A stretch of DNA of 64,000 bases from Bacteroidota bacterium. GTDB taxonomy: Bacteria > Bacteroidota > Rhodothermia > Rhodothermales > UBA10348. Of the stretch, positions 33,524 through 49,731 are shown in pieces (position 1 is the stretch's first letter; each line of letters begins with the position of its first letter). Position numbers and translations under genes: made by a program. The stretch lies in assembly GCA_029262855.1 (NCBI GenBank), contig JAJCYP010000046.1:1-64000 (forward strand). The letters are read 5' to 3'. The notes under the pieces are model-generated. The model did not search any database, was not told the DNA's origin, and saw nothing but the letters and a program-made list of their open reading frames with translations.

Positions 33524-36124
33524 CTACTTCTTCTTCGCGGCGGGTTTCTTCTTGGCTGCGGGTTTCTTCTTGGCCGCAGGCTTCTTCTTCTTCGCTGCCC
33601 GGGCATTCAGCAGCTCGACGGCCTGCTCGACCGTGATTGCGTCCGGATCCGAGCCCTTGGGTAACGAGGCATTCACCTTGGCATGCTTGACGTAGGGGCC
33701 ATAGCGCCCCTCAAAAAGCTCTATCGGATCACCCGTTTCCGGGTGATCACCCACGGTACGGAGTGGCTTGTTCTTGGCCTCCTTCTTGGCGATCAGCTCC
33801 AGGGCACGGGGCTCGTCCACCGTCAGGACGTCATCGGCCGGTGTGAGGGACGCGAAGGTCCGCTTGTGCTGGACGTATGGCCCGTACCGACCGATGTTGG
33901 CGAAGAGGTCCTCGCCAGATTCCGGATGGGTACCCACCATGCGGGGCAGGTTCAACAGAGCGATTCCGGTCTCCAACTCCACGGTGGCGGGGTCCAGGGC
34001 CTTCGGGACCGACATGCGCTTGGGCTTGCCCTCCTGGTCCTTCTCGCCCAGCTGCACGTAGTAGCCGTACGGCCCGCGACACACGAAAACCGGCATGTCG
34101 TGATCCGGGTGGATACCCAGAAGACGATCTCCCTCGTTCGAGTCCCTGAGGAGTTTGGCGATTTTGCCGGACGTCACGTCGCCCGGAGTCCAGTCCTCGG
34201 GGATGGACGCCTTGAGCGTCTCGCCATTCTCTTCGTGTTCTACGTAGGGACCGTAGCGTCCGACCCGCACCGAGTACGGCAGCCAGGACGGCATCTTGAT
34301 CTCTGAAATCGTTCGGGCATCGATCGCGTCGAGTCCGGCCGCGACCTTCCCTTCCAGGCCCTCCGCACCCTGGAAAAACTTCTGGAGGTAGGGGAGAGGT
34401 TTGCGGCCCCCGCTGGCAATGTCATCCAGACTCGCCTCCATGCCTGCCGTGAATCCAACGTCCACGAGACTCCCGAAATTCGACTCCAGCAGGTTCGTCA
34501 CGGCAAAGGCGGTAAACGACGGCTGCAACTGATTGCCCTGCCTGGTGACGTAGCCCCGGTTGACGATGGTGTCGATGATCGAGGCGTAGGTACTCGGCCT
34601 TCCAATGCCCTCGTTTTCGAGGAATCGGATCAATGAAGCGTCGGTCAGGCGGGCCGGCGGCTTGGTCTCGGATCCGCGCGCTTCCAGTTTGCGGCAGTTG
34701 GGCGCATCGCCCTTCGTCATCTCCGGTAGCGGAGACTCGCGATCCTCCAACTGGGCATCGGGATCGTCCGAGCCTTCCACATAGGCTCGCATGAAGCCCG
34801 GAAACTCAATGGTGCGGCCGGATGCCCGAAACGTACAGGCATCGTCTCCCGATCCGGCTTCGATCTTGACCGTGACGGTGCGAAGGCGCGCATCGGCCAT
34901 CTGGGAGGCGACGGTCCGCTTCCAGATCAGATCGTACAGATTCCCTTCGACGCCGGAGAGCCCGAGGGTCTCGCGGGTCTTCATTTCGGTGCCGGACGGG
35001 CGAATGGCCTCGTGCGCCTCCTGGGCGTTTCGCACCTTATTGGAGTACTTCCGCTGACCGGAGTAGAGGTAGTCCTTCCCGTAGAGCCGGGTGATCGCAT
35101 CCTGACTGGCCTTGATGGCCTCTCCGCTCAGGTTGGTCGAGTCGGTACGCATGTAGGTGATGAAACCCTGCTCGTACAGGCGCTGCGCCACCCGCATGGT
35201 TTCGCGCGCTGAGAGGCGAAGCTTACGACTCGCTTCCTGCTGGAGGGTCGACGTGATAAACGGTGCCGCAGGCGACCGCGAGGACATTTTCGCCTCCACG
35301 GAATCGACCATCCAGGCGCTGTCTTTCAGGCGCTCAACCAGTTGGCGGGCCCGGGCTTCTTCCAACTGAAGGACGTCCACACCGGGCTTCAGGTCTTCCT
35401 TCAGGCGACCCGTGTCATCGTCGAAGTCGCGCCCGGCGGCAATACGAACGCCGGCCACGTGCGTGAGGGCAGCCTCAAAGGACCCGGCGGGGACCTGCAG
35501 CTTGGCATCGAGATTCCAGTAGGTGGCCGGAACGAAGGCAATTCGCTCTTTCTCGCGGTTGACAATGATGCGAACGGCGACGCTTTGCACGCGCCCGGCG
35601 GAGAGCTTGGGGGCGACCTTCTTCCACAGCAGCGGCGACAGCGTGTACCCTACCAGACGATCCAACACACGCCTGGTCTCCTGAGCCTCGACCAGGCTGG
35701 TGTCCATCTCGCGGGTCTCCTCCAGTGCTGCCTTGATGGCCTTCTCGGTGATCTCGTGGAAGACCATCCGGCGAACGGGCACCTTGGGCTTCAGTACTTC
35801 GAGCAGGTGCCAGCCAATGGACTCTCCTTCACGGTCTTCATCAGTGGCGATGAAGAGGGTGTCAGCGTCCTTGAGAGCCTCCTTCAATTCCTTGACGACC
35901 TTGGCCTTGTCCGGCGGAACCACATAGAGCGGCTCGAAGCCCTCTTCCACGTTGACGCCCAGGCGAGACCAGGCTTCCCCCTTGTACTTCTTGGGGATCT
36001 GGCTGGCTGACGCCGGGAGGTCCCGGACGTGCCCCATACTGGCTTCTACCCGGTACTCTTTGGGCAGGAAACGGCGAATGGTGCGGGCCTTGGTGGGGGA
36101 CTCGACTACTACGAGAAACTGCAT
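33524..36124 (-). CDS. topA: DNA topoisomerase I with Lys/Ala/Pro-repeat tail
   Basis: Type IA topoisomerase that relaxes negative supercoils. The 866-residue protein starts at MQFLVVVESPTKARTIRRFL (TOPRIM) and has the acidic metal site TDEDREGESIGWHL, the active-site segment FITYMRTDSTNLSGEA with the catalytic tyrosine, and several C-terminal topoisomerase repeats (GRYGPYVKHAKVNASLPKG). Instead of zinc fingers it ends in a tandem KKKPAA repeat, a basic disordered tail likely to bind DNA. The open frame extends to 36268 without similarity, so the ATG at 36124 is used. An A/T-rich TTAATTTTTTG lies just upstream on the coding strand. Confidence 0.97.
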   Translation of the reverse strand: MQFLVVVESPTKARTIRRFLPKEYRVEASMGHVRDLPASASQIPKKYKGEAWSRLGVNVEEGFEPLYVVPPDKAKVVKELKEALKDADTLFIATDEDREGESIGWHLLEVLKPKVPVRRMVFHEITEKAIKAALEETREMDTSLVEAQETRRVLDRLVGYTLSPLLWKKVAPKLSAGRVQSVAVRIIVNREKERIAFVPATYWNLDAKLQVPAGSFEAALTHVAGVRIAAGRDFDDDTGRLKEDLKPGVDVLQLEEARARQLVERLKDSAWMVDSVEAKMSSRSPAAPFITSTLQQEASRKLRLSARETMRVAQRLYEQGFITYMRTDSTNLSGEAIKASQDAITRLYGKDYLYSGQRKYSNKVRNAQEAHEAIRPSGTEMKTRETLGLSGVEGNLYDLIWKRTVASQMADARLRTVTVKIEAGSGDDACTFRASGRTIEFPGFMRAYVEGSDDPDAQLEDRESPLPEMTKGDAPNCRKLEARGSETKPPARLTDASLIRFLENEGIGRPSTYASIIDTIVNRGYVTRQGNQLQPSFTAFAVTNLLESNFGSLVDVGFTAGMEASLDDIASGGRKPLPYLQKFFQGAEGLEGKVAAGLDAIDARTISEIKMPSWLPYSVRVGRYGPYVEHEENGETLKASIPEDWTPGDVTSGKIAKLLRDSNEGDRLLGIHPDHDMPVFVCRGPYGYYVQLGEKDQEGKPKRMSVPKALDPATVELETGIALLNLPRMVGTHPESGEDLFANIGRYGPYVQHKRTFASLTPADDVLTVDEPRALELIAKKEAKNKPLRTVGDHPETGDPIELFEGRYGPYVKHAKVNASLPKGSDPDAITVEQAVELLNARAAKKKKPAAKKKPAAKKKPAAKKK
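33527..33597. repeat. topA: In-frame 18-bp tandem repeats in topA
   Basis: Three to four copies of an 18-base unit encode KKKPAA at the extreme C-terminus of topoisomerase I. The copies differ at synonymous positions (for example gcggcg, gctgcg, gccgca for the Ala pair), so they have been maintained at protein level and are not a very recent slippage product. Confidence 0.7.
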
Positions 36125-36366: not shown

Positions 36367-39048
36367 ATGGAAACCGTGGAACAGGAGCCAGAACAGGCAA
36401 CAGCCAAGAAGCGTGTGTACGTCTTCGGTGGCGGGAAGTGCGAAGGGGACAAGTCGATGAAGGCCCTCCTTGGTGGGAAGGGAGCCAACTTATCAGAAAT
36501 GAGCTCGATTGGCTTGCCGGTGCCTCCGGGCTTCACGGTGAGCACCGAGAGCTGCCAATACTACAGCGAGAACGAGAACCAGTGGCCCGAGGGTCTGGAG
36601 CAGAGCGTCCGCGACGGGATTGACCACATCGCCAAGGCGATGGGCACCGGCTTCGGCGACCGCGAGAACCCCCTGCTGGTTTCGGTTCGCAGTGGTGCGG
36701 CCGAGTCCATGCCGGGCATGATGGATACCGTCCTCAACCTCGGAATGAATGATGAGGTCGTGGAGGGGCTCGCTGAAAAGAGCGGGAGCGTCCGCTTTGC
36801 CTTCGACGCCTATCGCCGCTTCATCGACATGTTCGGCGACGTGGTCATGGGCGTTCACCATGCGCAGTTCGAGCACGCTATTGAGGCGCTCAAGAAGTCG
36901 CGCGGCGTGGAGAATGACGTCGACTTGACGGGCGATGATCTTCGTGAGCTGGTCGACCGCTACAAGGCCATCTACCGCAAGCACACCGGGTACATGTTCC
37001 CGGACGATCCCTACGAGCAGCTCAACCTGGCGATCAACGCCGTGTTTGGCTCGTGGGACAGTGACCGGGCCCTGAAATACCGCCAGATCAACAAGATCAC
37101 GGGTCTCATCGGTACGGCGGTCAACGTGCAGGCGATGGTCTTCGGCAACCTGGGTGATGGCTCCGGAACAGGCGTTCTGTTCACGCGCAATCCTTCGACC
37201 GGCGAGCACAAGCTGTACGGCGAGTTCCTGGTCAATGCCCAGGGCGAAGACGTGGTGGCCGGAATCCGGACCCCGGAAGACATTTCGCAGATGGCCGAGA
37301 AATTCCCGGCTGCCTATCGCGAGTTGGTCGAGGCCACCCACAAGCTGGAGAAGCACTACGCGAACATGCAGGACATTGAGTTTACCGTCCAGGACGGCAA
37401 CCTCTACCTGCTGCAGACGCGGAACGGAAAGCGCACCGGACCGGCCGCCGTCAAGATCGCCGTCGATCTGGTCAAGGAAGGGCTGGTGGACAAGGAGCAT
37501 GCGGTTCGCAACCTCGTCGACCCGATCCACATCGACATGCTGCTGCACCCAAGGTTCGAGGACCCCGTAGCCTATCAGCCATCCGTGATTGCCAAGGGAC
37601 TTCCGGCGTCGCCGGGCGCCGCGGTCGGTCAGGTCGTGTTCAGCGCTGAAGACGCCGAGGCCCGCAAGGCTGAAGGTCAGGCTACGATCCTGGTTCGCAT
37701 CGAGACGAGCCCCGAAGACGTCGGTGGAATGCACGCCGCGGAGGGCATCCTTACGTCCCGTGGAGGCATGACGAGCCACGCGGCCGTGGTTGCCCGTGGA
37801 TGGGGCAAGCCGTGTGTCGCCGGCTGCGGCGACATCGTCATCAACTACGGATCGAAGTCTTTCACCAACGGTGATGTGACCGTCCAGGAGGGCGATTGGA
37901 TCTCCATCAACGGCTCAACCGGCCAGGTCATCCTTGGCAAGCAGCCGCTGGTCAAGCCCGAGATGACGGGCGAGTTTGCCGAGTTCATGAGTTGGGTCGA
38001 TGGCTTCCGCCTCATGAAGGTTCGAACGAACGCGGACACGCCGGCCGATGCGCAGGCCGCGCTCGAGTTTGGCGCTCAGGGCATCGGACTCTGCCGGACC
38101 GAGCACATGTTCTTCGAGGGTGATCGCATCGATCACGTCCGCGAAATGATCATTGCCAAGGACGAGAAGGCGCGGCGCGCAGCGCTGGCCAAGCTTCTGC
38201 CGGTACAGAAGTCTGACTTCCTCGGCATCTTCGAGGTCATGGCCGGACTCCCGGTTACGGTTCGCCTGCTTGATCCGCCGCTCCACGAATTCCTGCCGCA
38301 CTCGGCCAAGGAAGAAGAGGAGATGGCCTCCAAGCTGGGTATCGACGTTGCGGTGGTTCGTGCCAAGGTCGAGGCGCTGCATGAGTTCAACCCGATGCTG
38401 GGTCATCGCGGATGTCGGTTGGGGATCACCTACCCGGAAATCACCGAGATGCAGGCTCGCGCGATCATTGAGGCGGCGGTCGAACTCTCCCAGAAGGGCG
38501 TTGACGTTCTTCCGGAGATCATGGTACCCCTGATTGGTACCGTCGAGGAGTTCCGCAATCAGAAGGCGGTCATTCAGGCCACGGCCGAGAAGGTCTTCAC
38601 GGAGAAGGGCGCCCGGGTGGACTTCATGATCGGGACGATGATCGAGATCCCGCGTGCTGCCTTGACCGCTGACAAGATTGCCAAGGAAGCCGAGTTTTTC
38701 TCATTCGGGACGAATGATCTCACGCAGATGACCTTCGGGTACTCCCGTGACGATGCCGGGACGTTCCTGCCGCACTACGTGGAGAACAAGATCCTGGTTG
38801 ACGATCCCTTCCAGTCCATCGACATCGAAGGCGTTGGCCAGTTGGTCCGCATCGGTACGGAGAAAGGACGCTCTCAGCGCCCGCTCCTGAAGGTGGGTAT
38901 CTGCGGTGAGCACGGCGGCGATCCGGCTTCGGTTCACTTCTGTCATGCGATCGGTCTGGACTACGTGTCCTGCTCGCCCTTCCGCGTGCCCATCGCGCGC
39001 CTTGCGGCAGCTCAGGCCTACCTGAAGTCTCAGGACGCCCGCGGCTGA
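36367..39048 (+). CDS. ppdK: Pyruvate, phosphate dikinase
   Basis: PPDK interconverts pyruvate, ATP and phosphate with phosphoenolpyruvate, AMP and diphosphate, linking glycolysis and gluconeogenesis. The 893-residue protein has the N-terminal nucleotide-binding domain ([20 protein letters not shown]), the central phosphohistidine domain [20 protein letters not shown] with the swivelling catalytic His, and the C-terminal PEP domain with [16 protein letters not shown] and [17 protein letters not shown]. The length is normal. It has a clear intrinsic terminator downstream. The leader contains a TATCTT element at 36317-36322. Confidence 0.98.
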
Positions 39049-39071
39049 GTCCGCGGCGCTCGATTGATTCG

Positions 39072-39107
39072 AACGGGGCGGCTGTCGAGAGACGGTCGCC
39101 CCGTTTC
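39072..39107 (+). terminator. Intrinsic terminator of ppdK
   Basis: AACGGGGCG (39072-39080) with GCTGTC (39081-39086) pairs with GACGGT (39091-39096) and CGCCCCGTT (39097-39105), giving a 15-bp stem with two G-U pairs in RNA and a GAGA (GNRA) tetraloop, followed by T-rich TTTCTC. It begins 24 bases after the ppdK stop codon and is the strongest plus-strand terminator in the window. Confidence 0.8.
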
Positions 39108-39130
39108 TCGGTGTGCCCGGTGGTCTGCCT

Positions 39131-39177
39131 ACCTGGACCTCCAGTTGAAACCTGGACCTCCAGTTCCCGTCTACAAT
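39131..39177 (+). promoter_or_regulatory. Tandem dyad operator with promoter-like element
   Basis: The 16-base unit ACCTGGACCTCCAGTT occurs twice, at 39131-39146 and 39150-39165, identical and separated by GAA (period 19). Each unit is itself a dyad, A.CTGGA..TCCAG.T. A -10-like TACAAT follows at 39172-39177, and TTGAAA at 39145-39150 lies 21 bases before it with the second dyad between them. This arrangement resembles sites for a regulator that works at an over-long promoter spacer. The controlled gene would be the small one starting at 39215. Confidence 0.55.
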
Positions 39178-39214
39178 GGAGTGCCGCCCAGAGGCTTTAT
39201 CCTACCGAAACACC

Positions 39215-39550
39215 ATGAGTGACGAAAAGAAAACGAACGACGCCTTCCACAACCTGCGAAACAGCTTTGACGAGTTGCAGGCTGACGAGCAGGCCCGCTT
39301 CCTGGTAGAGGCGGCCATGTCGCTGGTGGCCAACGGGGCCCGCGAAGCCGGAAATGCTGTTTCCAGCGTGGTTGACGATCTTGTCGACGGCCTCAAGCGC
39401 GAGCGGGATGCCTGCTGTGATGACTCGTCCGAGAGCGCGGCCGATTCGGAGCCAAAGCCCAAAGCCAAAGCCACGACCAAGGCTGCGGCGAAGAAGACCA
39501 CGCGCAAGCGCGCTCCAAGGAAGCCGGCGGCCGACGCTGGAGATGCGTAG
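39215..39550 (+). CDS. Small conserved-looking protein with basic tail
   Basis: The 111-residue product has an alpha-helical amphipathic region (about 8-65, NLRNSFDELQADEQARFLVE, then AAMSLVANGAREAGNAVSSV), a short CCDDSS segment and a Lys/Ala/Pro-rich tail (about 85-105) like that of histone-like or phasin-type proteins. The ATG at 39215 is chosen because the in-frame codons before it lie within the leader and promoter. The next gene begins three bases after its stop. I do not recognise the family. A polymer-granule or nucleoid-associated role is only suggested by its shape. The tandem dyad operator upstream implies tight control. Confidence 0.65.
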   Translation: MSDEKKTNDAFHNLRNSFDELQADEQARFLVEAAMSLVANGAREAGNAVSSVVDDLVDGLKRERDACCDDSSESAADSEPKPKAKATTKAAAKKTTRKRAPRKPAADAGDA

Positions 39551-39553
39551 GCA

Positions 39554-39811
39554 GTGCCTGCGGAGGATCCATGGGGAGCCGAGGTAGAGTTCGACCAGCT
39601 CACTTGGCTGGGTAAAGCGGTGTACCTCTCGGGGCACGTCGCGCGGGCGGCCGGCTCCGTGCTGGAGACCGTGGTCGATGGCGCAGCGGGGCTGATCGCC
39701 GATACAGAGCGTGCCTTTCGGGACGGACTGGATCCGAACGTCGAAGACGCCAAGATCCTGGCCGAGTACGAAGAACCATCAGACGCGAATAAGCCTCCCG
39801 GGAAGGAATGA
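39554..39811 (+). CDS. Small hypothetical protein, coupled to the preceding gene
   Basis: The 85-residue product begins at GTG 39554, three bases after the stop of the previous gene. It has an amphipathic, moderately hydrophobic helix region (LTWLGKAVYLSGHVARAAGS, then VLETVVDGAAGLIADTERAF) and an acidic hydrophilic tail. The acid/base complementarity with the neighbour's basic tail would suit a pair of interacting proteins. No family is recognised. Codon use matches the neighbours, and the operon-like spacing supports it as a real gene. Confidence 0.6.
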   Translation: MPAEDPWGAEVEFDQLTWLGKAVYLSGHVARAAGSVLETVVDGAAGLIADTERAFRDGLDPNVEDAKILAEYEEPSDANKPPGKE

Positions 39812-39861
39812 CAGCAGTGGCGCGCCCGACGGGCTTTCCCGGCCCGCCAAGCGCCCCCTGA

Positions 39862-42366
39862 TCAGTTGTTGCTGACTACCAGATCCGGGGTTCCGGCGAT
39901 CGGCTGACGCTGAATCTCGGCCGCCGGGACCTTGAAGAATTCCTTGGGATCGTTCGTCGGACGCTTCACGAGGACCTGTTCCAGCACGTCTTCCATGCGG
40001 GCCAGGTACTCCACGGACAGGCCCTTGAGTGCGCCCCGCTGAATCTCCAGAATGTCCTTACGGTTCTTCTCTGGCAGATAGACCTTCTTGATGCCGGCGC
40101 GTTTGGCGGCCAGCACTTTTTCCTTGATGCCACCCACGGGAAGAACGAGGCCGCGCAGCGTGATCTCACCCGTCATCGCGACCGTGTGGCGGACCCGTCG
40201 CTGGGTGTAAATGGACACCAATGCAGAAAGCATGGCCACTCCCGCCGAAGGTCCGTCCTTGGGGATGGCGCCCGCCGGCACGTGCACATGGAGGTCCCAG
40301 TGCCGGAAGGCCGCGTTCGGAATTCCGAGATCCTCCGCATTGGCCTTCACGTAAGACAGCGCCGCCTGTGCGGACTCCTTCATCACGTCGCCCAACTGTC
40401 CGGTCAGGATCATCCGACCAGTCCCGCGCGAAACCGAAGCCTCAATAAACAGGATGTCTCCGCCGACAGGCGTCCAGGCCAGACCCGTGGCAACACCAGG
40501 CACGACCGTGCGCTCGGCCACCTCGGACTCAAAGCGACGGGACTTGAGGTAGGTTTCGATGTCCTCCCCGTCAACCTTTTCGCCTTCCAAATCACCCAGG
40601 GCCACCTTCTTGGCGACGCCGCGGGCAACCGAACCGATGGTACGCTCCAGGTTGCGGACACCGGACTCGCGTGTGTAGCCGTCTATGACCAGCTTCAGCG
40701 CCTCGTCGGTGATTTCAAACTGATCCTCCTTGAGACCGTTGCGGTCGCGCTGGCGGGGGACCAGGTACTGCTTGGCGATGGCCAGTTTCTCCTCCTGGGT
40801 GTACCCCGTAATCTGAATCAGCTCCATGCGATCCCGAAGCGGAGCGGGAATCATCTCCAGGTAGTTGGCCGTCGCGATGAAAAGGACCTTCGAGAGGTCG
40901 TAGTCCAACTCGAGGTAGTGGTCGTTGAAGGCGCTGTTCTGCTCGGGATCCAAGACCTCCAGCAGAGCCGACGACGGATCGCCACGGAAATCCGATCCCA
41001 GCTTGTCGACCTCATCGAGCATGAAGACCGGGTTGGCCGTGCCTGCTTTCTTGATTCCCTGAACGATGCGGCCGGGCAGTGCCCCGACGTAGGTGCGACG
41101 GTGGCCGCGGATCTCGGCCTCGTCCCGAATACCACCGAGACTCATCCGGACGAACTCACGGCCGACGGCCCGGGCAATGCTCTTGCCCAGGCTGGTCTTG
41201 CCGACCCCCGGAGGGCCGTAGAAGCATAGGATGGGCGCCTTCATGTCGCCCTTCAGCTTGAGGACGGCCAGGTACTCGAGAATGCGCTGCTTGACCTGCT
41301 CGAGGCCGTAGTGATCCTCGTTCAGAATCTTCTCCGCGCGCTTGATGTCGAGCTTGTCCTTGGAGTATTCCTCCCAGGGAATGTCCAGGATCCAGTCTAC
41401 ATAATTGCGAGTGACCGCATAGTCCGGTGAGGCGGGGTTGGACCGGCCGAGCTTGTCCAGTTCCTTGTTCAGGGCCTTCTGGACATGCTCAGGGAGTTTC
41501 TTTTTTTCGGCCCGCTCGCGCAATTCTCCAATCTCGACTCCGGTGCCTTCGGTGTCGCCCAGCTCTTCCTGAATGGCTTTCAGCTGCTGGCGGAGGAGGT
41601 ACTCGCGCTGCTGCTGATCCACGTCGGTCTTGACGCGGGAGCGGATCTCCTCGGACAGCTGAAGGACCTGGAGCTCTTTGTCCAGATGCCGCATCACGAG
41701 GTCGGCGCGTTCCACCAGAGGCAGGGTCTCCAGGAGTTCCTGCTTGTCGGATACGTCAATCTGCAGGTTTGACGCGATGAAGTGGATCAGAAACGTCGGC
41801 GACTCGATGTTCTGGATGGCGTAGGCCGCCTCGCTGGGAAGGTTGGGCGACAGATTCACAATCTGGATCGCCAACTCCTTGATGGACCTGATGCGCGCCT
41901 GAATCTCGACCTGATCGACGTCGGTCGACTCGTTGACCGCCTCGACCTGTGCCTTGAAGTAGGGATCGGTCTCGACAATGCCGTTGATCTTGAAGCGCCG
42001 CTTCCCTTGAATGACGATGGAACGCGAGCCATCCGGCATCTTGATCAGCTTCAGGATGCTGGCAACCGTTCCGTAGCTGTAGAGGTCGTCGCTGTCCGGG
42101 TTCTCGGTCTCGGCTGCGCGTTGAGCGACCACACCGATGAGTCGGCTTCCCGAGAAGGCGTCCTTGACCAACTTGAGGGAGGTGTCTCGTCCCACCGTAA
42201 TGGGGAGCACGACGCCCGGGAAGAGCACGGTATTGCGGAGCGCGAGTACGGACAGCACATCGGGAACGTCCGATGTGCTCATCTCCTTCTCCTCATCGGG
42301 AGTCGGGAGAGGAATGCTCTGTTCTGGATCCTCGTCGTCGATCAGGCGAAGGAATTCCGGGGTCAT
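39862..42366 (-). CDS. lon: ATP-dependent protease La (Lon)
   Basis: Lon degrades misfolded and regulatory proteins in the cytosol. The 834-residue protein has the N-terminal substrate domain (about 30-240, [20 protein letters not shown]), a coiled region, the AAA+ module with [19 protein letters not shown] and [17 protein letters not shown], and the protease domain with [18 protein letters not shown], where the Ser is catalytic, and the Lys further on in [13 protein letters not shown]. The length is standard for LonA. The upstream 131-base gap separates it from the histidine kinase gene on the same strand. Confidence 0.98.
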
Positions 42367-49690: not shown

Positions 49691-49731
49691 GTGGCGCTGG
49701 GCGGTCAGGCCGTGGCGCTGGGCGGTCAGGC
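49691..49731. repeat. Perfect 20-base tandem duplication between convergent genes
   Basis: GTGGCGCTGGGCGGTCAGGC occurs at 49691-49710 and again at 49712-49731 with one base between (period 21). It begins directly after the GNAT stop codon; the second copy contains the stop codon and last residues of the BON gene on the other strand. Perfect identity suggests a recent event or copy correction. Confidence 0.85.

Follow-up and report, generated by a model that had tools for sequence, protein, structure and literature searches.

Background

The closest described counterparts of the locus studied here are two kinds of promoter and one protein family. Among SigW/RpoE-type ECF promoters, PMC2375139 gives the Bacillus subtilis SigW motif as TGAAACN16,17CGTA, and PMC3397946 describes CGTC at -13 to -10 as widely shared by ECF promoters. 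The -10 of Tt-RpoE1 is CGTC, and in the factor of T. tengcongensis a DXXR motif reads the -12 G. MerR-type promoters have a spacer of 19 or 20 bases, according to the accessible portion of PMC1526738. The protein family is CsmC (PF11098), found in the envelope of chlorosomes, the light-harvesting organelles of green sulfur bacteria; it is presented as synapomorphic for the Chlorobium class in the available part of PMC10849945, and in that of PMC12214013 as dispensable, yet affecting chlorosome absorption and energy transfer. No CsmC relative outside phototrophs is described in the literature that we found, where two papers name both CsmC and Rhodothermus (PMC9316378, PMC3150298). The literature search likewise returned no described ECF promoter in Rhodothermales and no report on the ORF1-ORF2 operon considered below.

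The window, that is the whole stretch of 64,000 nucleotides that was analysed, comes from a genome of the order Rhodothermales. The promoter found in it shares with the SigW/RpoE type the -35 TGAAAC, the 16-base spacing and a -10 of the form CGT(C/A). It differs by a -10 extended to CGTCTAC, a -35 extended to GAAACCTG, and the occurrence of one site of such form per genome with no visible regulon. With the operators of the MerR family (ZntR and others) the locus has in common a palindrome between two hexamers, whereas spacer length, arm spacing, lack of conservation and lack of a regulator gene nearby set it apart.

Results and discussion

An ECF-type element beneath the tandem palindrome

The features discussed are the following, in window coordinates:

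39072-39105, no strand assigned: inverted repeat with 15-base arms, 87% complementary, and a 4-base loop, followed by TCTC
39131-39146, no strand assigned: dyad copy 1, ACCTGGACCTCCAGTT, a lineage-specific duplication with no conserved counterpart
39147-39151, plus strand: ECF-type -35 element GAAAC (extended form TGAAACCTG, 39146-39154)
39150-39165, no strand assigned: dyad copy 2, ACCTGGACCTCCAGTT, lying mostly between the two ECF-type boxes, in their 16-base spacer
39168-39174, plus strand: ECF-type -10 element CGTCTAC
39215-39550, plus strand: ORF1, 111 aa, with a short helix, a long helix (residues 23-72) and a basic disordered tail
39554-39811, plus strand: ORF2, 85 aa, GTG start, with a conserved F..L...GKA, a long helix and an EDAKI motif

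The original prediction had singled out two identical 16-base dyads with a 19-base period, and the hexamers TTGAAA and TACAAT standing 21 bases apart. Both observations are correct: the two copies are identical, and direct reading places the hexamers at 39145-39150 and 39172-39177. The element that is conserved among relatives is GAAAC-N16-CGTCTAC. TTGAAA starts two bases to the left of its -35 box and TACAAT four bases to the right of its -10 box; these hexamers are thus out of register with the conserved boxes, and a spacer of 16 bases appears as one of 21.

The region 39146-39174 is very probably an ECF sigma promoter, TGAAACCTG-N13-CCGTCTAC, driving the two-gene unit ORF1-ORF2. The AAC core of the -35 is present here, within GAAAC, and in all 18 sites with a 16-base spacer, and the same 18 sites all carry the CGTC of the -10 (39168-39171 in the window). 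The spacing of 16 falls in the 16-17 range of ECF promoters, and the genome encodes ECF sigma factors. To judge from the form of the motif, it is close to certain that a sigma factor of the ECF class would read it. A sigma-70 promoter scan of positions 38900-39900, at spacings of 16-18, returned none. By analogy with the promoters for which the available part of PMC3397946 places CGTC at -13 to -10, transcription is predicted to start at about 39181.

Conservation before the ORF1 family

The conservation of this element was assessed on 27 upstream regions, those of the BLAST-positive ORF1 homologues in a sample of 60 genomes, the window's genome included; three of the 30 ORF1 loci (L023, L032 and L034), which gave no match in our tblastn search, were left out. 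GAAAC-N15..18-CGTCTAC stands before 25 of the 27 homologues with at least 10 of 12 motif positions matched, and with all 12 in 16 of them. In 20 rounds of shuffling, never more than one of the 27 came that far (0 or 1 per round, mean 0.5). Spacings are distributed as follows: 16 in 18 regions, 17 in six and 15 in one. The distance from the end of the -10 to the ATG is 32-86 bases in 24 of the 25 regions and 142 in the remaining one. The two regions scoring below 10/12 are L026 and L033, and the three regions from genus g22 score no higher than 10-11/12. L084, from a contig titled Rhodothermus sp., also carries the operon, with a promoter and an ORF1 identical to those of G077, a genome of the order.

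The unit is widespread. Matches to the ORF1 protein were found in 43 of the 60 genomes, covering most families of the order, and ORF2 homologues in 51, mostly beside ORF1 by their coordinates (the window's genome being counted in both cases). The end of lon, in convergent orientation, lies beyond the gene pair in 23 of the 30 loci, and the end of the dikinase gene precedes the pair in 13, some loci being cut by contig ends. The hairpin at 39072-39105 would terminate transcription of the preceding gene, that for pyruvate phosphate dikinase, and so separate the unit from it. The claim that the small-gene pair forms a dedicated regulated unit is thus upheld in so far as the promoter motif marks the operon in genome after genome; the route of control is very probably an ECF sigma factor and not a MerR regulator.

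Two side observations concern these loci. In Rhodothermus a third gene directly follows ORF2 (L084:6917-7408); it encodes a membrane protein which, by eye, resembles a bacterial PH-domain protein. GCAAC takes the place of GAAAC as the -35 in four loci, L010, L014, L021 and L025 (genomes G014, G024, G008 and G022), from two genera within the family to which the window's genome belongs. Matching changes in region 4.2 could help to identify the sigma factor through this variant.

Specificity of the motif across genomes

We searched 114 genomes of the order with two patterns. Eighteen genomes contain a single match each to the strict pattern TGAAACCTN{14,16}CGTCTAC, whose control has none; 17 of the 18 matches precede the ORF1 family and the last one (L065) is at a contig end. 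TGAAACN{16,17}CGTCTAC has 42 matches in 38 genomes, compared to 14 for its control. Thirty-one of these are located before the ORF1 family, no genome having more than one, and ten elsewhere; the last falls at a contig end (G003 C67) and could not be assigned. The ten off-family matches are about as many as the control pattern predicts, and eight of them lie in or opposite long open frames. A ninth, in G001, precedes a sigma gene, at a place whose counterpart in the window's genome is within the gene upstream. The tenth, in G012 (L283), is intergenic, and the gene that begins 38 bases after it looks on inspection like one for a lipoprotein amidohydrolase; the site lies on a different contig from the ORF1 gene of that genome and is a possible second target.

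In the window's genome GAAACN{14,18}CGTCTAC has three matches, two of them, apart from the site studied, within coding sequence. A larger regulon was looked for there with a two-mismatch pattern, which gave four matches against six for its control, a weak test in which the gap was one base too long and the own site was unlisted. As far as the exact motif goes, the element appears to be a one-operon switch; weaker targets are possible. The motif can also serve directly as a probe for such a dedicated unit under ECF control, and it finds family members missed by sequence search: ORF1-like genes were reached by the motif alone in G004, which the ORF1 protein search had missed, and in G068-G071, which are outside the sample.

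The candidate sigma factor

There are 19 matches to PF04542 in the window's genome, one of which is the primary factor; five of these sigma proteins were checked against NCBIfam and all match sigma70-ECF. Sigma groups were defined as reciprocal best hits between this genome and eight others. Six other genomes that carry the motif were examined, and each has five ECF groups (L039, L040, L043, L049 and L053) in addition to the primary factor. The same five also occur in G040 and G029, where no site was found before the family, so co-occurrence does not single out the sigma factor. The nearest PDB match of both L040 and L043 is SigW (E 2.2e-29 and 1.4e-26, respectively). The DXXR motif is visible in seven of nine L043 orthologues, the pattern having fallen elsewhere in the other two, and the recognition helix LPLGTVKAH(I/V)FRAR is found in all 8 orthologues printed; L040 has SEYR at the position of the DXXR motif. 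Because SigW is its nearest PDB match, the DXXR motif and the recognition helix are kept, and L040 carries SEYR, we rank the SigW/RpoE-like factor at L043 first, as the putative cognate factor.

Signs of autoregulation were sought at 125 sigma loci of nine genomes (19 of the window's genome and 106 of 125 matches elsewhere, the 19 of G032 being left out), among which no convincing intergenic copy of the motif was found; the autoregulation that is common, though not universal, among ECF sigma genes is therefore of no help here. A motif copy at L053 (L053:1312-1341; 11/12, spacing 17) lies 73 bases before the sigma ATG, but within the end of the gene upstream, and we regard it as no more than a lead. 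Its counterpart in G001 (C1:1377833-1377862) matches 12/12 with spacing 17 before an ECF sigma gene, likewise in or near the end of the preceding gene; the orthologue in G036 has no such site. Elsewhere, TGTAACC-N-CGT-like pairs stand near the starts of the orthologous ECF sigma genes L041 and L248, and are possibly the autoregulatory promoter of these genes.

Status of the tandem dyad

The repeat itself is not a chance event, since none of 30 Markov shuffles shows any 16-mer repeated within 60 bases. The window contains three places where exact 16-mers recur within this distance, and the dyad site is one of them; the other two are at 33540, in the PAAKKK tail of topoisomerase I, and at 49691. 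Conservation of the dyads in relatives, proposed as a check, was not borne out: the palindrome is present in the spacer of just 2 of the 27 homologous upstream regions, and its second copy is missing from 26. The other carrier is the nearest relative, a sister species, with CTGGATCCAG at the same spacer position; the dyad was not found in the third genome of the genus (L007), nor in the remaining upstream regions of the 27 compared. Further copies in the genome, also proposed as a check, do exist, CTGGA-N2-TCCAG being common, with a mild excess only (31 places, compared to 22 for the reversed control pattern). The left arm of copy 2 coincides with a conserved CCTG after the GAAA of the -35 region.

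The original prediction saw here a regulator of the MerR type, which would bind the dyads and distort the promoter so as to shorten its over-long sigma-70 spacer. A dyad does sit between TTGAAA and TACAAT, and the operator of ZntR, a MerR-family member, also has CTGGA...TCCAG arms in the available part of PMC1526738. However, the same source gives 19-20 bases as the spacer, against 21 here, and 6 bases between the arms in ZntR, against 2 here; together with the near absence of the palindrome from homologous spacers and the lack of any MerR regulator among the eight neighbouring proteins scanned, this makes a MerR-distorted promoter very improbable. A second layer of control, in which a genus-specific repressor or activator would bind one or both dyads on top of the ECF promoter, has more in its favour and is nevertheless unlikely. 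Copy 2 is an exact duplicate, the sister species keeps the palindrome in place, and a 19-base period would set two dimers on nearly one face of the DNA. Against it, L007 and all other genomes do without the dyad, the left arm is half accounted for by the conserved CCTG, and the genome count shows no clear excess over the control. In the best explanation of the locus, the tandem dyad appears as an addition to the spacer that is peculiar to the species or genus and dispensable for the switch. By this comparison of upstream regions, the repeated palindrome looks mostly like a quirk of one species, with an older and strongly conserved ECF-type element beneath it.

The ORF1 and ORF2 proteins

Neither protein matches a Pfam or NCBIfam family over the cut-off. 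AlphaFold models ORF1 as a short helix and a helix of 50 residues, with a basic tail that is disordered (mean pLDDT 76.7, pTM 0.37), and ORF2 as one 41-residue helix (mean pLDDT 78.1, pTM 0.36). The hydrophobic moments of these predicted helices exceed those of shuffled helices by a factor of about 2-3. On these models, the chance that ORF1 and ORF2 act on a membrane or lipid surface seems to us not far short of even, and the pair is most likely a putative stress-induced pair of lipid-surface helix proteins. A common origin of ORF1 and ORF2 was considered and set aside as too weak to claim (HHalign probability 68-73%; the score of 27.1 compares with a maximum of 22.6 over 100 shuffles). The ORF1 alignment comprised 25 of the 27 homologues (L016 and L019 left out), and the ORF2 alignment was made without L112, which gave no match in our tblastn search, and without L099, L104 and L123, whose frames have no usable start.

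Other functions have been weighed for the pair. PhaF combines a long helix with a basic tail, and the helix followed by a K/A/P-rich tail would suit phasin-like coats of polyhydroxyalkanoate granules. However, a PHA synthase exceeds the cut-off in only three of 60 relatives, all of family f4 and none of them the window's genome, and ORF1 was not found in those three; we rejected the phasin reading, which is hardly probable in a genome with no PHA synthase above the cut-off. A role in the nucleoid, with the basic tail of ORF1 binding DNA or RNA, is rather improbable. The ORF1 tail has 11 K/R against 5 D/E in 39 residues, and that of one homologue matches the histone H1-like HC2 (E 1.6e-5); against this, the tail is unconserved and in several homologues acidic, and matches of low complexity are weak evidence.

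A relation of the helical domain to the N-terminus of CsmC is indicated by profile comparison. PF11098 is matched by 12 of the 25 ORF1 homologues with E values no greater than 1, the lowest being 0.0016, and none of the ORF1 scores shown, 13.4-17.7 bits, passes the gathering cut-off of 26.3. When 395 genomes of the phylum were searched with PF11098, the top match below true CsmC was the ORF1 homologue of G034 (E 9.3e-4, calculated for one genome), in a ranking that leaves out a 19-position fragment. Profile against profile, ORF1 and CsmC align with an HHalign probability of 95.4%, and the domain by itself scores 47.4, whereas 100 column shuffles never exceeded 16.5 and the reversed profile reached 9.8. 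What they share is the N-terminal motif Y..LR..F.EL...D...FL.E......GG...AG, over 43 aligned columns with 33% identity, the relation spanning about 43-50 residues. ORF1 thus has the N-terminal helical module of CsmC; it lacks the C-terminal half (beyond profile position ~54, the alignments ending at positions 35-54) and stays below the Pfam cut-off. As the remainder of CsmC is missing, we do not file ORF1 as CsmC. The ECF motif was found before none of the seven csmC loci inspected.

Under the preferred reading, that of an ECF-controlled pair of lipid-surface helix proteins, the cognate sigma factor would be released, probably under envelope or proteotoxic stress, and RNA polymerase would then start near 39181. 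The two small proteins would be made, and their long amphipathic helices would rest on a membrane or lipid surface; the helical module of the CsmC N-terminus would also be the basis of ORF1. A wider scenario is that Rhodothermales keep an ancient lipid-surface-helix operon under an ECF sigma factor, with one strict site in most genomes, and that CsmC was built from ORF1, or both from a common ancestor; we put it forward tentatively, as something that could be so without being the better bet. If true, part of the chlorosome envelope descends from a membrane-stress protein. The link to CsmC offers an outgroup for a chlorosome protein and a handle on the origin of chlorosome envelope proteins.

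A last observation concerns Maricaulis, in which five loci (L082, L083, L086, L087 and L088) carry an identical 30-mer, TGAAACCTGGCCTTAACGCTAACCGTCTAC. It ends 34 bases short of a gene that looks on inspection like motB, and may be a conserved promoter of ECF-like form for this flagellar motor gene.
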